The position numbers were made by a program, and so were the translations under genes. Of a stretch of 64,000 nucleotides of DNA, positions 40,117-46,734 are shown in pieces (within the stretch, counting starts at the first letter, position 1; every line of letters starts with the position of its first letter). Origin of the DNA: Niabella agricola (lineage in GTDB: Bacteria > Bacteroidota > Bacteroidia > Chitinophagales > Chitinophagaceae); NCBI RefSeq assembly GCF_021538615.1, contig NZ_JAJHIZ010000003.1:4154001-4218000 (forward strand), in the 5' to 3' direction. The notes below the pieces were generated by a model that was not told where the DNA came from, did no database searches, and saw only the letters and a list, made by a program, of their open reading frames with translations.

Positions 40117-40446
40117 CTATTTTCCTTTGGTCAACCGCTCAATATGATCATCAATTTCCTGTTCGGTTACGGCATCAAATATGGCTCCAAATTGGGCAAA
40201 GCTATAGCCCAGTGCGCCCAGCAGGCGATAGAGTGTAGAGCCTCTGATATCTGTTTTAGCGGTGATGGTATCAGAAATTGTGCCTTTACGGACTCCGGTG
40301 CTGCTTGATAATTTGTCATAGCTGTCATCTACCCCGGGATGCGGAGAATTACCAGACATACGATTGATTTCCTTATTTGCTGAAATAAGTTTTTGCAATG
40401 CTACCGCATATCTGCACTTAACCCGATACCATCCGTCTTCAACCAT
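40117..40446 (-). CDS. Small XRE-type helix-turn-helix protein
   Basis: The 109-residue protein has a helix-turn-helix-like region at about 50-90 (YDKLSSSTGVRKGTISDTI, then LYRLLGALGYSF). The N-terminus is basic and the C-terminus acidic (EQEIDDHIERL). It resembles the second regulator gene 150 bases upstream in style. A perfect inverted repeat lies 33-50 bases upstream of its start, the usual place for an autoregulatory operator. Horizontal origin is likely, given the adjoining insertion sequence. Confidence 0.65.
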   Translation of the reverse strand: MVEDGWYRVKCRYAVALQKLISANKEINRMSGNSPHPGVDDSYDKLSSSTGVRKGTISDTITAKTDIRGSTLYRLLGALGYSFAQFGAIFDAVTEQEIDDHIERLTKGK

Positions 40447-40597: not shown

Positions 40598-40918
40598 TTA
40601 GATCTTCTTGTTATGGGCTTTCAGTTCTTGCTGCTTTTTTTGATACTCGATGAATTTTTTTTCATCGGCAGGATTAACATCATCAAAATAAGCAGCCAGT
40701 TGGCTGTATGAAATTCCTAGACCGTCGGCAATCGCAACCTGAGTTGACAATGTGAGGTTCTTTTTACCGTTAGCGATCAGCTGCATATGTGATTTTTCCA
40801 TCCCGATTTCTAGGGCTAGTTTTGTGGGATTGAAATTTGTATCTTCCATTGCTTTATGTAATGCCACTGCAAACTGAAACGTGATCTCTTTTTTTTCTTT
40901 CTTATTGTGCGCTTTCAT
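40598..40918 (-). CDS. XRE-family helix-turn-helix regulator
   Basis: Translation from the ATG at 40918 gives 106 residues. A longer frame to 40972 crosses the palindromic operator and is not believed. The HTH (about 30-75) reads NPTKLALEIGMEKSHMQLIANGKKNLTLS (in pieces: TKLALEIGMEKSHMQLI and GKKNLTLSTQVAIADGLG), the Cro/CI pattern. The tail is Lys-rich and highly charged (KKFIEYQKKQQELKAHNKK). Both this gene and its neighbour are AT-rich compared with the core genes. Confidence 0.8.
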   Translation of the reverse strand: MKAHNKKEKKEITFQFAVALHKAMEDTNFNPTKLALEIGMEKSHMQLIANGKKNLTLSTQVAIADGLGISYSQLAAYFDDVNPADEKKFIEYQKKQQELKAHNKKI

Positions 40919-40952
40919 TATAAGCAAGCTGAAAGAATTTTTAAAAATTTTA

Positions 40953-40970
40953 GACGTATTATAATACGTC
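40953..40970. promoter_or_regulatory. Perfect 18-bp palindrome, putative operator
   Basis: GACGTATTATAATACGTC is a perfect palindrome with no spacer. It lies 35-52 bases before the XRE gene at 40918 and 17 bases before a TAnnTTTG element facing the other way, so one dimer could control both directions. Confidence 0.65.
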
Positions 40971-40986
40971 AATATGGTTTTTTATT

Positions 40987-40994
40987 TATATTTG
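40987..40994 (+). promoter_or_regulatory. Candidate -7 element (TATATTTG) reading into the structured region
   Basis: This exact TAnnTTTG match on the plus strand would start transcription near 41001. The -33 position falls inside the palindromic operator at 40953-40970, where no TTTG is present, so an activator or repressor may replace it. Confidence 0.45.
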
Positions 40995-41058
40995 TGTGAA
41001 GAATACATAAATTCGCGACTACTTCATAAAAGCATTTGAAGCATTCGCTTTGAGTCTT

Positions 41059-41167
41059 GAATAGAAACCTGAGAAATTTCTAATTGGAACGAGACGATAA
41101 GACGAATAGCTCACGACCCGGGCGTGGGCTCTCTTATCCGTTCCATGGCTTCTCAGGGCCTCTATTC
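41059..41167 (+). ncRNA. Candidate structured RNA, long nested hairpin
   Basis: Five nested stems pair in register. GAATAG (41059-41064) pairs with CTATTC (41162-41167) and CCTGAGAA (41068-41075) with TTCTCAGG (41150-41157). GGAACG (41086-41091) pairs with CGTTCC (41139-41144) and ATAAGA (41097-41102) with TCTTAT (41132-41137). AGCTCACG (41108-41115) pairs with CGTGGGCT (41123-41130), with one G-U pair, around the loop ACCCGGG. All but the last stem are perfect. No protein frame spans it. The strand is set by the upstream promoter candidate. I cannot assign it to a known RNA class. Confidence 0.55.
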
Positions 41168-41174
41168 GGTAAGT

Positions 41175-41427
41175 TGAGCACCACGCCTAATTTTTTGCTC
41201 ACCGGCTTGCCGCTAAGAGGGGGGGAAGACTCATCTAACTGTCATTGTTATATGAGATGAGTAAACTGCTTTTATATTATTTATGCCTGCAGGCTGATGC
41301 TGTCAACTTGGGTGGCTTGCACCACGCGTTGTATAATGCACGGTTTGCCAGCAAACCAAAGAACCCGGTGTAACGTATAGCCGGGCGGGAGGCGGTATTC
41401 TCATGTTAAGCCTCCCATCACCCGGCT
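41175..41427 (+). other. Further hairpins in the gene-free stretch before the TlpA-like gene
   Basis: At least four more inverted repeats follow: TGAGC/GCTCA (41175-41201), ACTCATCT/AGATGAGT (41229-41262), GGTTTGC/GCAAACC (41342-41357) and AGCCGGG + GGGAGG / CCTCCC + CCCGGCT (41379-41427). The last one is a strong two-part stem. No protein is encoded. The region could be one long RNA, a transcribed 5' leader of the downstream operon, or a recombination site. Confidence 0.5.
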
Positions 41428-41518
41428 GCCGGGCACAAAAAATACCATTAATGCTAATCCATATCATCTGCCCATGATAACCTGAATAATATTGCTTTAC
41501 GGCCTAAACACTTGTAAT

Positions 41519-42118
41519 ATGAAAAAAATAACGCTTGCCTGCGTAATGGCGATCCTATGCGCCTATAATATGGCTTTTACACAGTCATTTTCATACAATA
41601 TTGCGAAGATCAATTTCCCGCTTTATGTGGGAGATTATGTAAACCGGTTGCAGTCAATAGGTAAGTCTGTTAACTATGTCTCTGACACGATTTCGCTTAA
41701 TCACTTTAAAGATAAGCTGGTCATTGTGGGTTTTTGGTTTACACATTGTGGCGCCTGTATTGCCCGGTTTAAAGATGAAATGGCTTTGCAGAAAAAATAC
41801 GCGAAAGATATTCAGTTGATTATGGTGACATTTGAGGATGCACCTGTTGTAAAACAATTTATAAAAGATTGGGAGCAAAAAAATAATACCCGTTTTACAT
41901 TGCCAGTTATTGTTGCGGATACGGTTTTAAAAAAGGCATTCCGCTCTCTTCACAACCCATATTATGCATGGCTGTTTCCTACGGGGCGGCTGGCGGGACT
42001 AACGAGTCCGGAGCTACTTACGCCTGCAGCTATTGAAGCAATGACTACGGAGTTAAAAAGCGATCGAAAAGCTCGCGCAACCTTTGATAAAGAAGCGGAA
42101 GAAAAAAAGAAACGTTAA
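41519..42118 (+). CDS. TlpA-like thioredoxin-fold protein, secreted
   Basis: A signal peptide (MKKITLACVMAILCAYNMAF) is followed by a thioredoxin-like domain with FWFTHCGACIARF, active-site cysteines C77 and C80. The cis-Pro region appears as LPVIVADT. The C-terminus is Lys- and Glu-rich. It probably acts as a periplasmic thiol-disulfide protein. The start at 41519 is preferred to an upstream ATG at 41492, which would add residues before the signal peptide. It is 18 bases upstream of the SusC gene, so the three genes form an operon with a nutrient-uptake pair. Confidence 0.85.
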   Translation: MKKITLACVMAILCAYNMAFTQSFSYNIAKINFPLYVGDYVNRLQSIGKSVNYVSDTISLNHFKDKLVIVGFWFTHCGACIARFKDEMALQKKYAKDIQLIMVTFEDAPVVKQFIKDWEQKNNTRFTLPVIVADTVLKKAFRSLHNPYYAWLFPTGRLAGLTSPELLTPAAIEAMTTELKSDRKARATFDKEAEEKKKR

Positions 42119-42136: not shown

Positions 42137-45100
42137 ATGCGTTGTATTTATCTTATTGTCTGCGCCTTACTGGCGGCAGGCGGGGCGTGGGCACAAGCGC
42201 CTGTTTCAATGGGTGGTACTGTTATTGATGAAGCTACGGGACTGCCGGTTACAAATGTTACGCTTACGGCTCTAAACAGCAAAAGAACTGTGGCCACAGG
42301 TACTGATGGTAAATTTTCTACCACCATGCTGTTGCCGGATACATTACTTGTATCGCATCTTGGTTATACACTACAAAAAGTACCAGTAACCAATAACACC
42401 CACCTTACGATAATGCTTACGCCAATGGGCAAGGATCTGGATGCGGTAATCATTAATACTGGTTATCAGCAGTTAAAACCAAATGAGGTTAATGGCAGCT
42501 TTGCTGTGATTGACAATGAAAGACTAAATGACCAAAAAGGCGTTTCCATATTAGACAGGCTAAATGGGGTTACACCCGGCCTGTTGTTTAAGTCCGGCAA
42601 GAATACCAGCAATATTAATAATTCTTCCGTTATCTCAATAAGAGGCGAAAGTACGATCAACGGCCCTTTGGATCCTTTGATCATACTGGATAATTTTCCG
42701 TATGACGGGGATATTAATAATATAAACCCGAACGATGTTGAAAGCATTACTGTATTGAAAGATGCTGCCGCTACTTCTATATACGGTGCAAAGGGCGGAA
42801 ATGGCGTTATCGTTATCACCACAAAGAAGGGACGGTACAATTCCCGTACGCAGGTGTCGGTAGCAATGAATACCATCGTACAACCCCGGCCCGATCTTAG
42901 CCTTTATCAGCAACTGAGTTCTGAAGAATTTATTGATGTAGAGGCCTTCTTGTTTAAGAACGGATATTACAACTCGGTTATTAACAATACCGCTAAAACG
43001 GCTATAACCCCTGCGGTTGAAGTTTTCCTTGAGCGCCGGCAAGGTACTATAAGTGCTTCCGATTCAGCGGCCCGCATTGCGTACTTAAAAAACGGAGATT
43101 CCCGCAATGCCTATAATAGTCTTTATAGAACAAGTAGTATAACCCTGCAAAACAGTTTCTCAATTAATGGCGGCAGCCAGAACATAGCCTGGCTATTGGG
43201 AGGTAATTATGATAGAATACAAAATTATGATCATTCAGAAAATAGCCGGATCAATATCCGGTTTAATAACAGTTTTAAGCTGGGAGACCATATTGTGATT
43301 GATGCGGGAGCCAATTATACCGGGTTCAACAGTGCCGGAGGAGCTCCCGCTTTTAACGGTATCCGGTTTGATAACCGGACTGTGCCGTACCTGCGCTTTA
43401 GAGATGAAGCAGGTAGCCCGTTGGCTGTGGCTAAGGATTACCGAAAAGATTATACCGATACAATAGGCCAGGGCCGCCTGCTTAACTGGGATTATTTTCC
43501 AGCAACAGATCACCAGTACCTAAAGGATCGGAATACGAGAAACGATATAATCGGAAGCCTGGGCATAAAAATAAATATTCTTAACGGTCTTATGCTTTCC
43601 GCCAACTATCAATACCAAACGCAAAATACCGAACAAGACAAACGGTATACTCCTGAAAGCTATTATGTACGGAATCTGGTGAACCGTTATACGCAATTGG
43701 GAATAACTCCTGCAACAGATACGTTTCGTATACCCAAGGGCGGTATCGTGTTGGGCAACTTGTCCAAACAGTTTTCCCACAACGGAAGAGCGCAGCTTTC
43801 CTATAACCGGAAATGGCCGGGGATTATAACGGCATTGTCTACTATTGCCGGCATGGAATTGCGAAGTACTACATCCGAAGGCAGCAGTTACAGCGTTTAT
43901 GGGTATGCCGAAGAGCCGATAAGTAACACGCCGGTTAATTATAATATCCGCTATCCGGTAATTATAAACGGATCGAGATTTGTTATTCCTAACGCTCCCA
44001 AAATAAATGCTGTTACCAACAACCGTTATGTATCTGCTTATTGGAATATGGTTGCAACCCTATGCGGACGTTTTTTTGTGAATACCAGCCTGCGCCGTGA
44101 TGCAGCTAATATTTTTGGATTGAGTACCAACGATAAATGGAACCCTTTCTGGTCAGCAGGCCTTGGCTGGGAATTGACCCGTGAGCGTTTTTTTAAAGCT
44201 CCCATTTTTAATTACCTGAAATTAAAAGCGACGTTGGGGACCAGCGGCATCGTCAATCCTAATAAAACAGCAGATGCGATCGTGCTTTTTTCCAATGATA
44301 TCATCACCGATTTTTTGAGAGGCCAGGTTAGTACACTTAACAATCCTCATTTGAAATGGGAGAAGTCGCAGCAACTGAATATAGGTGTTGATTTTGAAAT
44401 GAAGGGCAGCCGTTTGCAGGGTACAGTTGACTATTACAGGAAAAAGGGGACGAACCTTTATGGGCCTGCACCTTTTAATTATACAGCATGGGGCGGAGCA
44501 CAGACGCTTGACATGAATGTAGCAGATATGGAAGGAACGGGTATAGATGCGGCCTTGAATTTTTGGGTTACTGATGGAGCGCTGAAATATAAGATAGGGC
44601 TCATATTTAACTACAATGAAAACAAAACCACGCGGTATTTCGGTCCGCGGGCGGAGGCAATGTCTGCTTTGCTAACAAACGGGAATGCCATTACTCCCAT
44701 TATTGGCAAACCACTTTATGCCATTGCTGCTTATAGATGGGGTGGCTTAAGCGCCAAGGGCGACCCGCAGGGTTATTTAAACGGGGCGCTCAGCACCGAT
44801 TATGCAGCAATGTTAAAGGAGGCGGATGCAAAAGGTGTGGCGGGCAATATTGTTTATGTTGGGCCCGCGAATCCCACATATTATGGGGCCTGGAACCATG
44901 CATTGCGTTGGAAAGGTTTTGAGATGAACTTTAACCTGCTTTTTAAGATGGGATATTATTTCCAGAAAAATGCGCTGAACTATCAGGGTTTATATGTTTC
45001 GGGGGGCGGAAATGCCGAATACGCCAACCGCTGGCAGCAACCAGGCGATGAAATGCGAACAAATGTACCGGCTATGGTGTATACCAATTATCCCCAGTTT

Positions 45101-45358
45101 TTAAGCAGGAATAGCTTTTACCAGGCCTCTGAAATACATGTATTACGGGGAGACCATATACGGCTGCAATATATAAATCTGTCGTATAGGTATCGATTTG
45201 AATCACATTTTATAAAAACGGCAACCATTAGTTTTAACGCTGCTAACCTGGGTATTATCTGGAAACAGAATAAATATGGCCTGGACCCGGATTATAACTA
45301 TACAGCCACTGTGCCCCCAAAACCGCAATTGACCATTGGTGTGCGAGCAGAATTCTAA
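42137..45358 (+). CDS. SusC/RagA-type TonB-linked outer membrane protein
   Basis: The 1073-residue protein has a signal peptide ending AQA. A carboxypeptidase-regulatory-like domain (about 22-110: GTVIDEATGLPVTNVTLTAL) comes next, then the plug domain with ISIRGESTINGPLDPLIILD (shortened: IRGESTINGPLDPLII) and DAAATSIYGAKGGNGVIVITTKKG-type text at about 205-230, and a C-terminal beta barrel. SusC partners form nutrient transporters energised by TonB. There is no N-terminal STN domain. The substrate is unknown: it is linked to a thioredoxin-like protein rather than to glycosidases. Confidence 0.93.
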   Translation: MRCIYLIVCALLAAGGAWAQAPVSMGGTVIDEATGLPVTNVTLTALNSKRTVATGTDGKFSTTMLLPDTLLVSHLGYTLQKVPVTNNTHLTIMLTPMGKDLDAVIINTGYQQLKPNEVNGSFAVIDNERLNDQKGVSILDRLNGVTPGLLFKSGKNTSNINNSSVISIRGESTINGPLDPLIILDNFPYDGDINNINPNDVESITVLKDAAATSIYGAKGGNGVIVITTKKGRYNSRTQVSVAMNTIVQPRPDLSLYQQLSSEEFIDVEAFLFKNGYYNSVINNTAKTAITPAVEVFLERRQGTISASDSAARIAYLKNGDSRNAYNSLYRTSSITLQNSFSINGGSQNIAWLLGGNYDRIQNYDHSENSRINIRFNNSFKLGDHIVIDAGANYTGFNSAGGAPAFNGIRFDNRTVPYLRFRDEAGSPLAVAKDYRKDYTDTIGQGRLLNWDYFPATDHQYLKDRNTRNDIIGSLGIKINILNGLMLSANYQYQTQNTEQDKRYTPESYYVRNLVNRYTQLGITPATDTFRIPKGGIVLGNLSKQFSHNGRAQLSYNRKWPGIITALSTIAGMELRSTTSEGSSYSVYGYAEEPISNTPVNYNIRYPVIINGSRFVIPNAPKINAVTNNRYVSAYWNMVATLCGRFFVNTSLRRDAANIFGLSTNDKWNPFWSAGLGWELTRERFFKAPIFNYLKLKATLGTSGIVNPNKTADAIVLFSNDIITDFLRGQVSTLNNPHLKWEKSQQLNIGVDFEMKGSRLQGTVDYYRKKGTNLYGPAPFNYTAWGGAQTLDMNVADMEGTGIDAALNFWVTDGALKYKIGLIFNYNENKTTRYFGPRAEAMSALLTNGNAITPIIGKPLYAIAAYRWGGLSAKGDPQGYLNGALSTDYAAMLKEADAKGVAGNIVYVGPANPTYYGAWNHALRWKGFEMNFNLLFKMGYYFQKNALNYQGLYVSGGGNAEYANRWQQPGDEMRTNVPAMVYTNYPQFLSRNSFYQASEIHVLRGDHIRLQYINLSYRYRFESHFIKTATISFNAANLGIIWKQNKYGLDPDYNYTATVPPKPQLTIGVRAEF

Positions 45359-45378: not shown

Positions 45379-46734
45379 ATGAAAAGTAAAGTATATATAT
45401 ATGCTGTATCTGCTTTCCTCATATTGACGGCAATGATTGCATGCAGTAAGTTTCTGGATAAAAAAACGAGCAATGGACTTAGCACTCCGAACTCTTTAAA
45501 AACCTTGCAGGCACTGCTTGATAACTCGGATGTTTTTAACATCAGTGTTGCACCCTCGTATGGAGAGGCATCGGCGGATAACTATTTTATTACGGATGCA
45601 GATTACAGCAAACTTTCCGATCAGTCCAAAAATGCTTACAGGTGGGCGCCTGTCACATATAATTATTCTAATGAATGGGCTAAATGCTACACCACTGTTT
45701 ATTATGCCAATTTGTGTCTGGAGGCATTGGGTAAAATTCCTGCAACGCCTGAGAACCGCTCGGATTGGGAATATATAAAGGGGGCGTCCTTATTCCACCG
45801 GGCGTATGCGTTTCTGAATCTGGCATGGACCTTTGCAAAAGCGTATGATAAAATTACGGCTGCAACGGATCTGGGTATTGATCTTCGCCTGCAATCGGAT
45901 TATACGGTGCCTTCAAAGCGCAGTTCTGTAGCGGCCGTTTATTCAAGAATTCTGGAGGATCTTTCGGAAGCGATTACCTATTTGCCGGCTAATACGGCGC
46001 ATGTGTTAAGACCCGGGAAGGCTGCGGGGATGGCGCTGATGGCAAGAGCCTACCTGTCGATGCGGAACTATGATAGCGCCTTTAAGTATGCAGATGAAAG
46101 TCTGAAACTGAATCCGTACCTGATCGATTATAATGCCATTAACAACGCAGTATTGCCGTTTGCGGCACTGGCTTATACACCCGAGGTTTTGTTTTATTCA
46201 ACGGTTTATCCCGGAGATGTTATGCCCTCCAAAAGGGTTATGATAGACACGATTCTTTACAGGATGTATAAAACGGGGGATATGAGGAAAATCTTGTTTT
46301 TTGATCCTAACGGGATGTATTACAATTTTAAGGGTACATATAGTACAAATGTTGGATTGGTTTTCTCAGGAATAACAACCGCCGAAATGTATTTAGTAAA
46401 AGGGGAGTGCCTGGTGCGTATGGGAAAGATAAAGGAAGGATTAGACCAGCTTAATACCTTATTGAGAAAAAGAGGAAGCCCTGTAATACTTGCGCCGGAG
46501 GATGTTGGAACTGAAGCGGAGGCTTTACAGATCATTTTAGAAGAGCGCCGAAAGGAGTTAATTATGCGTGGGGTGCGTTGGAGTGATATAAAACGGCTGA
46601 ATAAAGAAGGCGCCGGTATTTTATTGCAGCGACTCATTAATGGTGCATTGGTAACATTGCCGGCTAACGACAACAGGTACGCGCTTCCGCTGCCACAGGA
46701 TATTTTGATTCGTACAGGAATGGAGCAAAACTAG
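45379..46734 (+). CDS. SusD/RagB-type nutrient-binding lipoprotein
   Basis: The 451-residue protein has a lipobox (MIACSKFLDKK, Cys about 22) and the SusD N-terminal region (NGLSTPNSLKTLQALLDNS). Later come the helical repeats YIKGASLFHRAYAFLNLAWT (about 130-150) and GKAAGMALMARAYLSMRNYD, then IILEERRKELIMRGVRWSDIKRL, the classic C-terminal SusD signature (given here in part). It sits over the SusC barrel to capture substrate. It begins 20 bases after SusC. It is at the short end for the family. Confidence 0.92.
   Translation: MKSKVYIYAVSAFLILTAMIACSKFLDKKTSNGLSTPNSLKTLQALLDNSDVFNISVAPSYGEASADNYFITDADYSKLSDQSKNAYRWAPVTYNYSNEWAKCYTTVYYANLCLEALGKIPATPENRSDWEYIKGASLFHRAYAFLNLAWTFAKAYDKITAATDLGIDLRLQSDYTVPSKRSSVAAVYSRILEDLSEAITYLPANTAHVLRPGKAAGMALMARAYLSMRNYDSAFKYADESLKLNPYLIDYNAINNAVLPFAALAYTPEVLFYSTVYPGDVMPSKRVMIDTILYRMYKTGDMRKILFFDPNGMYYNFKGTYSTNVGLVFSGITTAEMYLVKGECLVRMGKIKEGLDQLNTLLRKRGSPVILAPEDVGTEAEALQIILEERRKELIMRGVRWSDIKRLNKEGAGILLQRLINGALVTLPANDNRYALPLPQDILIRTGMEQN

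Follow-up and report, generated by a model that had tools for sequence, protein, structure and literature searches.

A pseudoknotted RNA ahead of a TlpA-SusCD operon in Niabella agricola, probably a new class of cis-acting leader found widely in Bacteroidota

Based on the comparison of related genomes, the segment 41014-41192 (+) of the analysed window (the whole 64,000-nucleotide stretch of N. agricola DNA) appears to be one member of a family of structured RNAs of ~180 nt, and its transcript probably runs from about 41000 to 41196. We consider it likely that this element represents a new class of cis-acting leader RNA, which probably helps to switch the downstream genes on or off and which is widespread in Bacteroidota ahead of unrelated genes. 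The structure and position of the RNA are well supported, and its transcription and switching are predicted from sequence. A new structured regulatory RNA had been suggested in the initial annotation, and this idea is supported by the lack of an Rfam match together with strong covariation, including that of two long-range helices. The genome carries three matches to the covariance model R1, namely the window copy, C3:3369704 and C3:3288489. The features of the region are listed here, with helix positions given as offsets from 41000 where they are short numbers.

40598-40918, minus strand: divergent XRE/Cro-C1-type HTH gene, 106 aa (Pfam HTH_26, E 2.4e-4, 21.7 bits against a cut-off of 22)
40953-40970, no strand: perfect palindrome GACGTATTATAATACGTC, presumed XRE operator, from the sequence
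40987-40994, plus strand: promoter element TATATTTG, taken as a Bacteroidota-type -7 element, from the sequence
41014-41192, plus strand: structured leader RNA, R1 match (188.5 bits, E 1.1e-48), the sole match in the window at E up to 1
41015-41048, plus strand: 5' hairpin P0, helices 15-18/45-48 and 22-26/37-41
41055-41094, plus strand: pseudoknot PK1, 41055-41058 with 41091-41094
41060-41166, plus strand: long arm P1-P5, helices 60-65/161-166, 68-75/150-157, 86-90/140-144, 96-101/133-138 and 109-115/123-129
41121-41187, plus strand: P6, 41121-41127 with 41181-41187, competing with the P5 3' strand and followed by a U-rich tract at 41188-41196
41167-41212, plus strand: P7, conserved CGGUAAGUUGAG with a downstream complement at 41197-41212, from the MFE fold
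41229-41262, plus strand: hairpin ACUCAUC/GAUGAGU enclosing the start codon of the short ORF, from 13 chosen Niabella rows
41257-41373, plus strand: short leader ORF, 38 aa, with the conserved C-terminus FASKPKNPV-stop
41379-41427, plus strand: stem-loop between the leader ORF and tlpA, AGCCGGG/CCCGGCT and GGGAGGC/GCCTCCC, with UUCUCAUG in its loop, from the sequence
41519-42118, plus strand: TlpA-like thioredoxin, the first large gene 3' of the leader (Pfam Redoxin, E 8.9e-8)
42137-45358, plus strand: SusC-like TonB-dependent receptor (Pfam Plug, E 3.3e-14)
45379-46734, plus strand: SusD-like lipoprotein (Pfam SusD-like_3, E 4.9e-25)

The five stems which the initial annotation had placed at 41059-41167 are present there, and all of them are stacked in a single arm. 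Its view that the hairpins exceed chance was borne out by folding: 41056-41172 reached -46.3 kcal/mol against a mean of -28.1 for 200 dinucleotide shuffles (z -4.9), none of which was as good, and 41050-41440 gave z -4.2, with 0/100 shuffles as good. A general search for repeats, for which a 9-nt seed is required, missed the stems: its sole inverted pair in 40700-41700 was 41026-41044/41257-41275, so the case for the stems rests on folding and covariation. R1 was built from 51 sequences and has 178 positions and 40 pairs; loci with identical 110-nt cores had been merged to 52, and exclusion of a partial match (L024) from the alignments A1 and A2 left 51 rows. In A2, aligned with MAFFT without reference to the structure (itself, however, derived from these sequences), 94.7% of cells were paired and 226 double changes were counted, and none of 500 shuffles was as high. 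For the larger alignment A3, 100 loci gave 101 matches and 99 distinct rows, near-identical or further copies being left out, and identity to the window copy is at least 53% with a median of 72%. Over its 44 pairs 97.7% of cells are paired, with 629 double-change cells and again 0/500 shuffles as high, and the pairing falls to 34-52% when the 3' partners are slid. Since A3 was fitted to R1, P0-P5 are favoured in it; PK1 and P6 are absent from R1. With that fit to these helices, 97-100% of cells are paired per helix in P1-P5 and double changes occur at 17 of the 18 pairs of P1-P3. P0 shows 90-95% of cells paired per helix in A3 and double changes at all nine pairs, each of which is broken by 4 to 10 rows. 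The mutual-information scan placed pairs of P3, P1 and P2 highest and ranked the PK1 pair 58-91 24th, and some of its high-ranking column pairs (e.g. 41022-41025) are unable to pair, which indicates a background of relatedness. Unpaired bases kept in at least 95% of rows include 41049-50, 41059, 41066-67, 41077-79, 41167 and 41170-73. The covariation in related genomes, whose absence the initial annotation had named as grounds to abandon its reading, is thus strong, and the RNA has the conserved, covariation-backed fold with long-range helices that is looked for in a riboswitch.

The long-range helices PK1 and P6 were recovered in an alignment whose model contains neither. PK1 is paired in 99.2% of cells, and its pair 58-91 is C-G in 72, U-A in 24 and U-G in 3 of the 99 rows. 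P6 is paired in 96.8% of cells, with 19 double-change cells at five of its seven pairs and 0/500 shuffles as high, as compared to only 33.5-73.9% in slid versions. A P6 complement of at least 7 nt, with G-U allowed, occurs in 101/101 rows; the longest one is in another register in three of them (L065, L162, L176), 15 nt are complementary in L171 (G-U allowed), and the loop reads AAAACCGTGG in L051 and L076, with CCACGGTTTT as its counterpart. The strand CGUGG is common to P5 and P6, and covariation backs both. In six rows the P5 A-U pair of columns 169 and 220 has become G-C, and at the shared column 220 P6 has six C-G replacing U-A, so three strands change together. The competition of P5 with P6 would be the anatomy of a two-state switch, between whose states the RNA may alternate. 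A U-rich tract follows P6 in most rows, as judged by eye, and transcription attenuation with P6 and this tract acting as a terminator was considered. The intrinsic terminator scan, which takes loops of 3-8 only, called none at P6 and this tract, and the P6 loop is about 53 nt, so translational control and a non-standard terminator are both possible. P7 is suggestive only, as a possible alternative to the core fold: Watson-Crick matches of at least 8 nt were found in 10 of 98 loci, modestly above the 1.3 expected by chance, and the longest match in the window itself is just 6 nt without G-U. A pairing of GAGUCU (41052-57) with AGACUC (41229-34) is confounded by locus type; AGACUC lies downstream in 19/101 loci, and GAGUCU is present in 17/19 of these versus 31/82 others. 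The GCUCA-UGAGC pairing was dropped because, by eye, it did not track the sequence changes in the locus types B and C described below.

The promoter element which had been claimed at 40987 was found there as TATATTTG, which fits the consensus of a Bacteroidota-type -7 element. TAnnTTTG occurs at -60 to -8 from the model start in 35/101 loci, while 50 shuffled rounds averaged 6.4 with a maximum of 12, and transcription would begin near 41000. Palindromes with arms of at least 8 nt precede the RNA in 24/101 loci versus 25/505 shuffled sequences; GACGTATTATAATACGTC is operator-like, presumably for XRE binding, and the divergent XRE-type protein is the presumed repressor of the promoter. Nine of the 101 loci have no upstream ORF of 60 aa, and the rest, with identical proteins merged, gave 90 distinct upstream ORFs, among which HTH_3 was matched in 56 and HTH_26 in 52 (E up to 0.01; no figure for the union), and one is CRP-like and one Fur-like (L173 and L190, by sequence). 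These HTH proteins are highly divergent, with a mean column identity of 9%. The window holds another small HTH gene behind the divergent one and likewise on the minus strand (40117-40446; HTH_3 E 0.004, short of its cut-off). Eight left-flank proteins, on the far side of the XRE gene, were also picked by eye: six match defence models (L267, L290, L288, L287, L003, L039), covering Cas9, a type I methyltransferase, Vsr, a ThsB-like TIR, an Old/GajA-like protein and PDC-S32, and those of L225 and L236 match no defence model. The RNA may frequently lie at the border of a variable defence region.

The RNA is found between the promoter element and the first gene, i.e. in the 5'-leader position of a riboswitch as far as sequence alone can tell, and its occurrence there in many loci supports the proposal of the initial annotation that it could be a leader of the TlpA-SusCD operon. 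In type A loci a protein of ~160 aa is encoded downstream (one was tested and had no Pfam match), and most start codons are 26-35 nt past the model end, the exceptions being L132 (52 nt) and L052 (broken frame); this short gap leaves little space for another promoter. Type B loci have a short ORF and then TlpA/SusC/SusD, and type C loci an ECF sigma factor. In Chryseobacterium, Cloacibacterium, Epilithonimonas and Soonwooa the RNA is followed by a sigma factor and then a Cas12f-family protein, and further loci carry small proteins of ~75 aa or response-regulator-like proteins, often without an XRE gene. Pfam matches among 118 first downstream ORFs were Sigma70_r4_2 in 27, Redoxin in 14 and Plug in 7; these ORFs came from 127 loci (101 plus 26 from named records), of which seven lacked an ORF of 68 aa beginning in the first 620 nt downstream, and identical ORFs were merged. 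The context survey took upstream ORFs from the minus strand only and downstream ORFs from the plus strand only, and both strands were listed for 20 and 32 loci. Such a variety of downstream genes leaves no common metabolite, which an ordinary riboswitch would be expected to have.

Several other observations were made on these downstream regions. Atypical downstream proteins at L039:2618-3235, L039:10410-11033 and L042 share the type-A N-terminus (MNNAVATPVQ, MNAVTTPTQ). In several type-A loci the codons around ACCCGCAC are complementary, by eye, to GUGCGGGU just 3' of the RNA, as if the gene start were part of the switch. Small, apparently helical look-alike proteins were noticed by eye behind the RNA at L188:1858-2109, L191:3734-4045, L171:3783-4046 and L003:8447-9004; those of L188, L191 and L171 were within the 118-ORF Pfam scan, which lists one HEPN match with the member unspecified, and a truncated relative has no Pfam match. 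The RNA lies upstream of a sigma factor of ~271 aa and a Cas12f-family protein of ~364 aa at L226, L234, L236, L237, L238, L252, L255, L262, L266, L277, L282, L288, L290, L295, L301 and L304, all in Chryseobacterium and relatives. By eye, and in comparison with the family, this Cas12f-family protein appears to lack the first RuvC aspartate and to end before the usual C-terminal part.

The region had also been described as free of genes, and this holds for ORFs of at least 60 aa in 40973-41491 but not for the 38-aa ORF at 41257-41373 with its conserved C-terminus. ORFs of 25-117 aa ending A-x-KP-[KR]-x-P-x-stop follow the RNA in 27/101 loci, and the same ending occurs in just 28 of the 3904 ORFs of 20-130 aa in the same DNA (one version used the pattern A-x-KP-[KRT]-x-P-x). 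SusC-, SusD- or TlpA-like sequence is present downstream in 27/27 loci with the motif ORF versus 11/74 others, a comparison in which the pattern was framed after the peptides were seen and some loci cover only ~1.5 kb downstream. Near variants missed by the pattern are ACRPKNPV (L051) and FPKKPKNPI (L169). The N-termini vary in length and sequence, and the C-terminus is fixed, as it is in peptides which act inside the ribosome tunnel. The locus thus has the short leader ORF with a conserved end that marks a leader-peptide attenuator, its translation being predicted, and by this analogy the ORF probably encodes a regulatory, stalling-type leader peptide. As for the later inverted repeats reported up to 41427, the hairpin around the start codon is kept in the 13 chosen Niabella loci: its first six pairs are present in 13/13 rows and the seventh in 9/13, with a compensatory U-A for C-G in four. 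The stem-loop at 41379-41427 is plain in the sequence, and its stem and loop are kept, by eye, in several relatives, but RNAalifold on the same 13 rows reported the start hairpin only. This stem-loop has no U-run, and the terminator scan called none at 41379-41427.

These results are consistent with the following mechanism. A promoter, probably under the divergent XRE-type repressor, would start transcription near 41000, and the RNA and the gene behind it would share one transcript. The first ~195 nt would fold into P0, the long arm P1-P5 and PK1. The end of the leader, CCACGCC with the U-rich tract, could form P6 by pairing with the 3' strand and apical loop of P5, and P5 and P6 would be mutually exclusive. 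The choice of P5 or P6, made in response to a ligand or some other trigger, would act as a switch and set the folding of the following region, and through it the reading or translation of the downstream gene. At SusCD-type loci the first gene reached would be the short ORF, with its start codon in a hairpin and its conserved C-terminus, whose product probably acts as a stalling-type leader peptide ahead of tlpA-susC-susD. A wider reading can be offered only tentatively: this may be a phylum-wide sensor RNA adopted by unrelated, locally repressed operons such as SusCD and sigma-Cas12f, so that one cellular signal (a second messenger, the translation state or phage infection) would meet the same fold in front of each, and in the SusCD type the stalling-type leader peptide would add a second checkpoint.

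A blastn search with the element found it in 21/99 sampled relatives and in 14/17 genomes of the genus, both counts including its own genome. R1, again with the own genome counted, matched 155/394 genomes of the family (58/101 genera), 62/298 of the order, 66/295 of the class (43/156 genera) and 24/247 of the phylum, three of these outside the class. Strict filters were used and only 6 to 11 candidates were scored per genome, so R1 copies are undercounted. Specificity was checked with a 19-letter pattern from the conserved 3' part, which matched 83 stretches among genome contigs. R1 matches 78/83 of them at E 2.7e-5 or better, with L246, L267 and L289 weak or partial; those with no clear R1 match are L240, L259, L279 and L298, which by title are Betaproteobacteria, Pyrinomonadaceae, Burkholderiales and Pseudomonas, and L299 (Flavilitoribacter; 13.6 bits, E 0.019). 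No similar DNA was found in the plasmid and phage records searched, and exact matches to the 19-letter pattern were absent from viral contigs. Four Chryseobacterium records (L255, L272, L277, L285) have an identical R1 score of 111.8 bits, and L255 and L272 share the HTH gene and a gene that by eye is metal-efflux-like upstream of the RNA; these identical scores and shared upstream genes hint at recent horizontal transfer.

The element could instead be a trans-acting small RNA which ends at the U-rich tract, is encoded beside its repressor and is only incidentally upstream of operons. Its own promoter element, the U-rich tract seen by eye 3' of P6 in most rows and the several copies in many genomes agree with this, but most type-A start codons are just 26-35 nt beyond the RNA, one locus type has a hairpin at the start codon and a short ORF of shared ending behind the RNA, and the scan for a local terminator hairpin made no call, and we regard a small RNA as unlikely.

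A guide RNA for RNA-guided transcription, or for another Cas12f/TnpB-type effector, is highly doubtful. In Chryseobacterium and relatives the genes immediately 3' of the RNA encode a sigma factor and a Cas12f-family protein (PADLOC Cas12f, E 2.4e-53), Cas12f was matched in 16/319 loci, and Cas12f/TnpB-type guide RNAs are pseudoknotted as well. However, the Cas12f query (PDLC01699) matched 0/17 genomes of the genus, in which the RNA is present in 14/17 by blastn, and the same query matches 6/14 control genomes. Two 20-nt segments 3' of the window copy had, besides themselves, only 3-mismatch matches in their own genome (one copy), and the sequences after the RNA resemble each other by eye among Cas12f loci, unlike guides. 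A guide RNA is therefore not supported for this genus, with no Cas12f match in its 17 genomes and no target below three mismatches.

A recombination site, the third idea of the initial annotation, gained no positive support, and in the form of a folded single-stranded DNA site (integron attC-like or of another kind) that exchanges defence cassettes with XRE genes it is the least probable reading. It would suit the variable left flank, which can hold defence genes in hand-picked examples, the low identity of the HTH proteins (9% per column on average) and covariation as such, which fits folded single-stranded DNA as well as folded RNA, but the element follows the promoter element at similar spacing in many loci and, where both strands were listed, is oriented alike with respect to the HTH gene and the following gene.

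The leader RNA thus remains the preferred reading. No Rfam 15 family reached its gathering cut-off on the element: the window gave 0 matches, and the stretch 40950-41530 gave none even at E up to 5. In 13 further loci the only matches were at L218:429-564, off the element, and 8 loci from other named Bacteroidota gave none. The statement of the initial annotation that no tmRNA is present agrees with ARAGORN, which found 0 tRNA or tmRNA genes in the window. A published description of this RNA was not found in a literature search that covered few subscription papers, so its absence from print is unproven. A pseudoknotted RNA of this size, matched in 66 of the 295 class genomes sampled and absent from Rfam 15, would be a new class of regulatory RNA. 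It would offer a handle on the control of SusCD import operons in environmental Bacteroidota, and in front of the sigma-Cas12f operons of some Flavobacteriia it may also control RNA-guided transcription. With the alignment and the model, its structure, switching and ligand can be tested directly.

As compared to known systems, the locus shows several partial likenesses. C-protein and phage-type XRE autoregulators have a divergent small HTH gene and a palindrome over the promoter, which are both seen here, whereas the promoter here drives a structured leader RNA. RNA-guided transcription by dCas12f-sigma is a known system, and a sigma-Cas12f type operon is right behind the RNA in Chryseobacterium and relatives; it differs in that the 17 genomes of this genus had no Cas12f match and a guide-like 3' end was not seen. 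Leader-peptide attenuators of the type of Bacteroid-trp (RF01692), a trp leader, also have a short ORF in the leader ahead of the operon, but what is conserved here is a C-terminal peptide motif and not a regulatory codon run, and a large structured RNA precedes the ORF. Bacteroid-trp (RF01692) appears in Table 1 of PMC2864571. A cobalamin riboswitch before a TonB-dependent transporter has been reported in Flavobacterium psychrophilum (PMC9723704), and metabolite riboswitches in this position are, like our element, folded 5' leaders of outer-membrane import genes in Bacteroidota. In contrast to them, the leader RNA described here has no Rfam match and no metabolite common to its downstream genes; it is usually located beside a local XRE-type gene and precedes several unrelated types of genes.
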